DNA of 32,250 nucleotides from assembly GCA_905182985.1 (NCBI GenBank), contig CAJJDN010000036.1:610002-642251 (forward strand), read 5' to 3'. The stretch comes from Paramecium sonneborni (Eukaryota > Ciliophora > Oligohymenophorea > Peniculida > Parameciidae). The stretch's first letter is position 1. Each line of letters begins with the position of its first letter. A program made the position numbers and the translations under genes. Under the pieces are notes generated by a model. The model worked only from the letters and a program-made list of their open reading frames with translations, had not been told where the DNA came from and ran no database searches. This document shows, piece after piece, positions 29,345-30,490 of this stretch.

Positions 29345-30038
29345 GAAAAATTGATACTTTTTAAATTAACAATAGCATATAAGAGGGCTCATTTGTTTTT
29401 CCTGTGTTAGGAACCGGCACAAGATATGGAGAATCAGTTTCAACTAGAAGTCTATCTAAAGGTGTAAATTTAAAGATAGACCTCAGTCAAAAGCATTCTA
29501 AAAGTAACAATTCGACAACTGAAATATCAAAACAAAGATTTAGTTTTTTTCGAGCAAATTTTCTTAAGCCGTAAAACAATCGATAAGACCAGGAAAATTA
29601 TCATTTTTTTATTTGAAGCTATTATCTCACAAGTAACCTTTTCAGCTTCTCAGGTATGAACTATTGTATGTAATTTGTTTTCGCAAGTTGCTTTAATATG
29701 CTCTTTAAATGATTGTTTCTGAAGGTTTTGCTGGTATCCTTTTTATAATGATAATCTAACCCTGTTTCTCCTAACCCTACCACTCGATCATTTTTAGCTA
29801 GGTTAATTAATTCTGAAGCACTTATTACTTTCCTTACCTCACTCATGTGCATACCAACTGAGGCAAAAACATTTTTAAACTTTTCTGTAATAGCCAAAGT
29901 TTTAGGAAAAATTTTCAAGTTTTGTACAAATTGTCTCAATGTAATTTATATTTGATTCTATAGCACATTAAATTATATTATTATGGGAATCATATCCTAG
30001 AGCATATCTAGATGGCACTATGAATCTACCAAGATCAT
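29345..30038 (-). pseudogene. tatD: bacterial TatD-family DNase, degenerate copy
   Basis: Reading down from ATG 30038: MILVDSQCHLDML is the TatD start, where families have SHCH; the first His is replaced by a TAG codon. Then follow NINYIETICTKLE, FASVGMHMSEVRK, the metal-site segment VVGLGETGLDYHYKKD, a His segment IVHT followed by TGA before EAE, KFTPLDRLLVETDSPYL with the last metal-binding Asp, and VPNTGKTNEPSY. Together these cover almost the whole family length (about 255 residues). At least two frameshifts (one near 29910 just before FPKTL, more between 29530 and 29630) and internal TAA, TAG and TGA codons break it. An uninterrupted piece lies at 29661-29939. TatD proteins are metal-dependent nucleases. 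The sequence is bacterial in type and closest in style to alphaproteobacterial proteins, and it follows metG as in many bacteria. It cannot make an active enzyme here. Confidence 0.88.
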
Positions 30039-30056
30039 TATTTTTCCCTTTAATTG

Positions 30057-30490
30057 CTAATCAAACCTTAGAAAAATTGGTTATGGATAACTTATTCTAG
30101 TAAAGGATTTGATGGCAAATTCTTTAGTTAAGTGTCTAAAATTGCGATTAACCTCTGTAACACTCAGTTGATCTAAAATTTTTGCTGCCATATCAGGAAT
30201 AAAGGTTGTTTTAAAATACCAATATATCTAACTGCTTCAACGATTCTGTATGAAACTTCATTCATTTTTACTAGGGTCCGAATTTTTGATGGTTCAAAGT
30301 GCTTCCAGATCTATTTAAATATTTGATTGCTCGGTTATGTACATTATAGAATCATTAACAACACTTGGTAATTAAATAAAAAATGTATCCTGTACATTTT
30401 TTCTATTAATTCCTATGCAAAATTTTTAAAGATGAAAGAACAAGTATGCTGTATCAGATTGCCAGTTTTATTAGAGAGTTCAGTAATGAG
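30057..30490 (-). pseudogene. metG: bacterial methionyl-tRNA synthetase, C-terminal remnant
   Basis: The 3' part of a metG gene ends at TAG 30057-30059, 18 bp before the tatD ATG. Recognisable pieces from N to C are: NKTGNLIQHTCSFI (near 30475-30430, less certain), IDLEA followed by SDPSKMNEVSYRIVEAV, RYIGIL, then after a one-base shift QPFIPDMAAKILDQLSV, EVNRNFRHLTKEFAIKS and SYP-PIFLRFD. This is the anticodon-binding helical domain and C-terminal tail of bacterial MetG (expected YIDxxAPW, ILLQPFIPDxAxKILDQL, PxPIFPRF). The catalytic half is missing or too diverged to see above about 30490. The Trp of APW is still visible but in a broken frame. The metG-tatD order is conserved in many bacteria, including alphaproteobacteria. 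Confidence 0.85.

Follow-up and report, generated by a model that had tools for sequence, protein, structure and literature searches.

A decayed Rickettsiaceae metG-tatD segment between host gene pieces near a contig end in a ciliate genome assembly

The stretch of DNA analyzed here, referred to as the window, comprises 32,250 nucleotides (C36:610002-642251) and ends where contig C36 ends. It is highly probable that the 1.2 kb at 29347-30567, on the minus strand, are a decayed piece of a Rickettsiaceae chromosome, lodged between pieces of host genes and likely end-joined at a germline break near a chromosome end. Frameshift-tolerant alignment reveals a metG remnant followed by a tatD remnant, running from 30567 down to 29347 over ~1.2 kb and amounting to the last third of metG and most of tatD. 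The metG relic (30057-30567, minus strand, including its TAG stop) encodes the C-terminal part of methionyl-tRNA synthetase, residues 318-509 of the 512 in P0126; over its aligned part (30060-30567), 113 of 164 aligned codons are identical, with 5 frameshift steps, 5 stops, and 23 gapped residues. From the metG stop (30057-30059), a bacterial-style gap of 18 bp (30039-30056, minus strand) leads to the ATG of tatD at 30036-30038. The tatD relic (29347-30038, minus strand), a TatD-family hydrolase, covers residues 4-242 of the 274 in P0001; identity extends to 182 of 225 aligned codons, and the alignment contains 10 frameshift steps, two of which are adjacent, and 3 stops in table 11. A MetG tail and a near-complete TatD on the same strand, 18 bp apart, were already recognized in the preliminary description, and its bounds of 29345-30490 are here refined to 29347-30567, on the minus strand.

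The tblastn score of P0001 was 187 bits, compared with at most 24.6 for the shuffled (200 shuffles) and 16.5 for the reversed protein; for P0126, the score was 107 bits, compared with at most 24.3 (200 shuffles) and 20.4, respectively. Scores so far above both kinds of control indicate that the match is not due to chance, and a phmmer search with one piece of the segment against 5.8 billion proteins returned an E-value of 2.8e-29. When ten frames within or next to the segment were scanned with Pfam, TatD alone exceeded the cut-off, with TatD_DNase (PF01026) recovered as two separate pieces. Neither Rfam nor the tRNA scan gave a match in the window, and its DNA-level matches to plasmids were trivial. 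Within the junction zones on either side of the segment, no additional MetG or TatD piece reached significance (best E 0.025), and MetG residues 1-317 left no significant trace in the right-hand zone.

To place the donor, we built one tree for each gene. In the TatD tree (64 rows; quick search without bootstrap, rooted on two host TatD genes with very long branches), the window sequence is sister to P0001 (SH-aLRT 86) within a four-row group that also holds P0002 and P0009 (99), and the surrounding rows include named Rickettsiaceae; the quick tree suggests the specific pairing with P0001. In the MetG tree (16 rows, with five other alphaproteobacterial rows as outgroup), the window sequence groups with ten close relatives, of which P0126 is its sister (100/99). 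The best 120 TatD relatives include a Rickettsiaceae bacterium, Candidatus Trichorickettsia mobilis, and unclassified Rickettsia, and one of the nearest ten MetG proteins is from a named Rickettsiaceae bacterium; the named rows near the window in both gene sets are Rickettsiaceae or Rickettsiales. Thus, by two separate trees, TatD and MetG of the window nest within a clade of intracellular bacteria, in one Rickettsiaceae lineage. Neither fragment fell in a eukaryotic clade, in trees that hold two eukaryotic TatD rows (the host's own genes, used as outgroup) and no eukaryotic MetG row. Another TatD entry, P0003, equals P0002 over its first hundred residues and differs in the remainder, and is likely a metagenome assembly chimera. 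The preliminary description had pointed to an endosymbiont; the trees narrow the family to Rickettsiaceae, and the donor was likely an endosymbiont of the host lineage rather than food, since Rickettsiaceae live intracellularly.

The two genes are donor neighbors kept in donor order and spacing. Among 20 named tatD loci examined (of at least 80), a frame of at least 400 codons ends near the tatD start in 6 and is absent in 14; the upstream frames at five of those six were read, and all five carry a MetG-type KMSKS or KISKS motif. Adjacency in the donor lineage itself is suggested by the entries P0015 and P0130, which have a listed longest contig in common (3554 bp), as do P0014 and P0132 (43954 bp). 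TatD relatives in named genomes (at least 80 loci) are 41-51% identical, and a class-wide search of 385 genomes gave matches in 366, at no more than 52% among the matches listed. The plasmid search matched 195 records, all below 60%, and none of 8 candidate viral contigs was confirmed. Alignments, gene order, and trees together support the earlier proposal that a single bacterial segment was transferred into a ciliate chromosome.

The relic has lost its reading frames and has changed much more than its relatives. The branch leading to the window is 0.25 long vs. 0.013 for its sister in the TatD tree and 0.43 vs. 0.027 in the MetG tree, so the change lies on the window's own branch. The window alters 5 of 39 TatD columns that do not vary among 113 relatives (from 125 proteins, 12 that were short, chimeric, or distant had been removed by hand), while other rows have a median of 0/39 and a maximum of 4/43; this maximum, reached by P0093, nearly equals the window's value, so that the invariant-column test alone is weak for TatD. 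Among TatD columns conserved at 98% or more, the window alters 8 of 62, compared with at most 4/62 in the others, and for MetG columns invariant in 10 relatives, it alters 22 of 86 (others: median 1/87, maximum 11/97). Six TatD positions invariant in 113/113 relatives were inspected; two are lost in the window, both of them histidines and presumably metal binders as in the TatD family at large, and one of these has become TAG. With frameshifts and TGA codons in both the metG and the tatD relic, neither retains an intact frame in the host code. These frameshifts are unlikely to be sequencing errors, since the adjoining 12.9-kb frame is unbroken. We infer that the metG-tatD piece probably makes no protein and evolves neutrally, as a relic without function.

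This adjoining frame (12683-25570, minus strand) also documents the code of the host. It contains 4296 codons, of which 293 TAA and 59 TAG (352) are read as sense, and no internal TGA, bearing out the earlier description of the flanks as ciliate-type DNA with reassigned stops. Translated in code 6, it is one unbroken frame of 4295 residues, in which a NACHT domain and numerous WD40 matches were found; the product, which we take to be of the STAND type, is unusually large. Elsewhere in the window, a 501-residue frame (9564-11069, plus strand) matches the ubiquitin family in five stretches and represents a diverged ubiquitin-like repeat protein, not polyubiquitin, and a 1808-residue frame (213-5639, minus strand) matches DUF4215 and, below the cut-off, Giardia variant surface proteins. 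In the host assembly (91.5 Mb, 289 contigs), 15 contigs carry mixed CCCCAA/CCCAAA telomere repeats in their first 100 bases, and C89, C134, and C179 carry them at the far end; the remaining matches are elsewhere or on contigs without a stated length, and the backward control matches the same repeat and is hence no control. We take mixed C4A2/C3A3 repeats to be of the Paramecium type. Based on the telomere type and on TGA as the only stop, the host is likely a Paramecium.

In the assembly, host DNA flanks the bacterial segment on both sides. The left host flank (27833-29177) is made up of fragments of host gene families. Related sequences occur on C89, where they lie beside a telomere (window 27833-28681, 28922-28979, and 29011-29177), C145 and C19 (27911-28639 and 28133-28633), and C121 and C134 (28723-29158), with 40 of 51 candidates scored in this search. 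A frame that overlaps the beginning of this flank (27418-28530) has no Pfam match above the cut-off. Between the left flank and the segment lies a junction zone of 169 bp (29178-29346) for which the genome search found no DNA relative in the host's own genome. At the tatD-side end of the segment, an imperfect inverted repeat (~29329-29358) was seen by eye, which may record the joining or have arisen by chance in DNA this rich in AT. The right junction zone is 737 bp long (30568-31304) and, from 30580 on, is likewise devoid of a DNA relative found in the same genome. It is followed by the right host flank (31305-32128, plus strand), a decayed piece of a host gene family that by eye encodes a multi-pass membrane protein; its relatives on C154 and C179 have open frames of at least 955 and at least 972 codons, and more relatives lie on C95 and C106. 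No empty site was found, as the left- and right-flank relatives found (40 of 51 candidates scored on the left) have no contig in common except C36. Repeats near the segment are many and weak, in AT-rich DNA, so we claim none as an insertion mark. C36 ends 1.7 kb beyond the segment and carries no telomere at that end.

This position near a contig end without a telomere, as given by the assembly, speaks for an assembly chimera, namely a symbiont read or contig misjoined onto the end of a ciliate contig; we nevertheless regard a chimera as very improbable, because host gene pieces flank both sides and not one, because a live symbiont requires an intact metG, yet both genes here contain frameshifts and stops, and because DnaN, TatD, and MetG disclose no other symbiont sequence. 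DnaN had no match in the host assembly, with controls positive in 10 of 14 genomes, these being the ten bacteria. TatD had three matches, namely the relic and two loci in which in-frame TAA/TAG are frequent, and MetG matched four pieces besides the relic, all with in-frame TAA/TAG; these codons assign the other matches to the host code, and no second bacterial TatD or MetG was found in the host assembly. Nor was a bacterial SSU found there, which is a weak negative (controls 9/14, 5 of 90 candidates scored). PF03219 was uninformative as a symbiont marker (controls 0/14), and SecA failed as a marker of symbiont contigs, because the host has SecA-like genes of its own in host code. The ten SecA_DEAD matches above the cut-off (on C56, C62, C69, C84, C85, C86, C93, C146, and C158) all have in-frame TAA/TAG and so likely belong to the host, a ciliate that would thus possess a SecA-like family of bacterial type. 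The marker results from DnaN, TatD, and MetG, and more weakly from SSU, make contamination unlikely. That the host has domesticated a bacterial gene, reading TAA/TAG as glutamine, is scarcely credible: a 211-codon frame (29604-30236) is indeed open under code 6 and covers the metG end and part of tatD, yet tatD exits and re-enters this frame, the frameshifts and TGA codons affect both genes, and of the two invariant histidines lost, the one replaced by TAG would be glutamine for the host.

A further alternative is a variant of the end-joined Rickettsiaceae piece, in which germline-limited or chromosome-end DNA has found its way into the assembly; the segment would then be micronuclear and be kept in some macronuclear copies only, with the chromosome end formed at variable places. 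This variant concerns only where the DNA is kept and is compatible with transfer, so that its odds overlap those of the preferred explanation; we consider it possible, on the doubtful side. On C89, the alignment of the left-flank relative stops at base 137, matching window position 29177, and telomere repeats fill bases 1-67; the bacterial segment begins 170 bp past the point where the match to this chromosome end stops, and C36 continues 3 kb past the same point and ends without a telomere. These features favor a variable end, but C89 could also be another chromosome end that happens to be shorter. The preliminary description took no account of the segment's position in a chromosome-end zone, where its macronuclear retention may be only partial.

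For the decayed Rickettsiaceae piece as a germline insertion, the following course appears likely. Ciliates rebuild their somatic nucleus from the germline at every sexual cycle and presumably clear this working nucleus of recent insertions of foreign DNA. Since each sexual cycle brings the destruction of the maternal macronucleus (PMC4503560), which is then remade, an insert confined to the macronucleus would not be inherited; the insertion would thus have been into the micronuclear (germline) genome, which should carry it. Entry probably took place when a break in germline DNA, close to a chromosome end, was repaired by non-homologous end joining. Both ends of the segment fall within genes, MetG lacking residues 1-317 and TatD its final part, which is the outcome expected from random breakage. 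The piece would then have persisted by doing little harm among gene relics at the chromosome end and would be kept, fully or partly, when the macronucleus forms. It is rather unlikely, and we propose it only tentatively, that foreign bacterial DNA here escaped the small-RNA genome scan and became fixed in the somatic genome by way of a chromosome end with a loose border between kept and eliminated DNA; if this is true, chromosome ends would be the route by which symbiont DNA reaches the macronuclei of ciliates. A rickettsial piece that survives in a somatic assembly provides a natural test of whether every copy keeps it, whether the germline has it, and whether scanning RNAs target it. The relic also suggests that a Rickettsiaceae bacterium once lived inside the host lineage.

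Rickettsial nuclear inserts are already known, and the unusual part of the present one is its retention in a ciliate somatic genome; in the open papers covered, we found no report that places rickettsial DNA in the macronuclear genome of a Paramecium. Wolbachia, a member of a different family of Rickettsiales, offers one comparison. Its DNA, mentioned for insects (PMC13071891) and for hosts generally (PMC9098888), likewise comes from an intracellular bacterium and has become part of host chromosomes; the case differs in that the hosts are animals. Among ciliates, a study of Euplotes vannus (PMC13071891) reports five glycoside hydrolase genes putatively acquired from an endosymbiont, with a Midichloriaceae-like bacterium as the possible donor, and very few genes from obligate intracellular bacteria. 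This case resembles ours in its ciliate macronuclear genome and suggested Rickettsiales donor; however, the Euplotes genes are of one kind, with 52-54% identity to a Bandiella protein, whereas the window holds a decaying chromosome piece with neighboring genes. For Ichthyophthirius, trees of seven candidates gave, in the portion consulted, no strong evidence of transfer from its rickettsial endosymbiont (PMC3341644), and for Megaera in Paramecium primaurelia, the transfer discussed in the accessible text is into the bacterium, not the host (PMC13134042). Beyond ciliates, excerpts describe rickettsial DNA in the eukaryotic genome of the fern Haplopteris ensiformis, differing from ours in being in a plant mitogenome (PMC10027690), and an operon common to Phycorickettsia and eustigmatophyte plastid genomes, for which a gene transfer event was suggested (PMC6092422). 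The nuclear genome of Volvox carteri contains, according to the sections available, a Megaira-type insert with 16S, murB, ddlB, and ftsQ-like pieces (PMC4324946), and the Volvox inserts are named partial Megaira inserts in PMC9098888. As in the window, adjacent rickettsial genes, some of them truncated, lie in a protist nuclear chromosome, and the donor symbiont has apparently been lost; unlike the present host, Volvox is a green alga without the germline and somatic nuclei of ciliates, and its inserted genes differ from metG-tatD. The murC-like pieces in other Volvox strains do show frameshifts; in strain EVE, the murB- and ddlB-like pieces are described without frameshift, ddlB being split by an insertion (PMC4324946), whereas in the segment described here both genes are heavily frameshifted.
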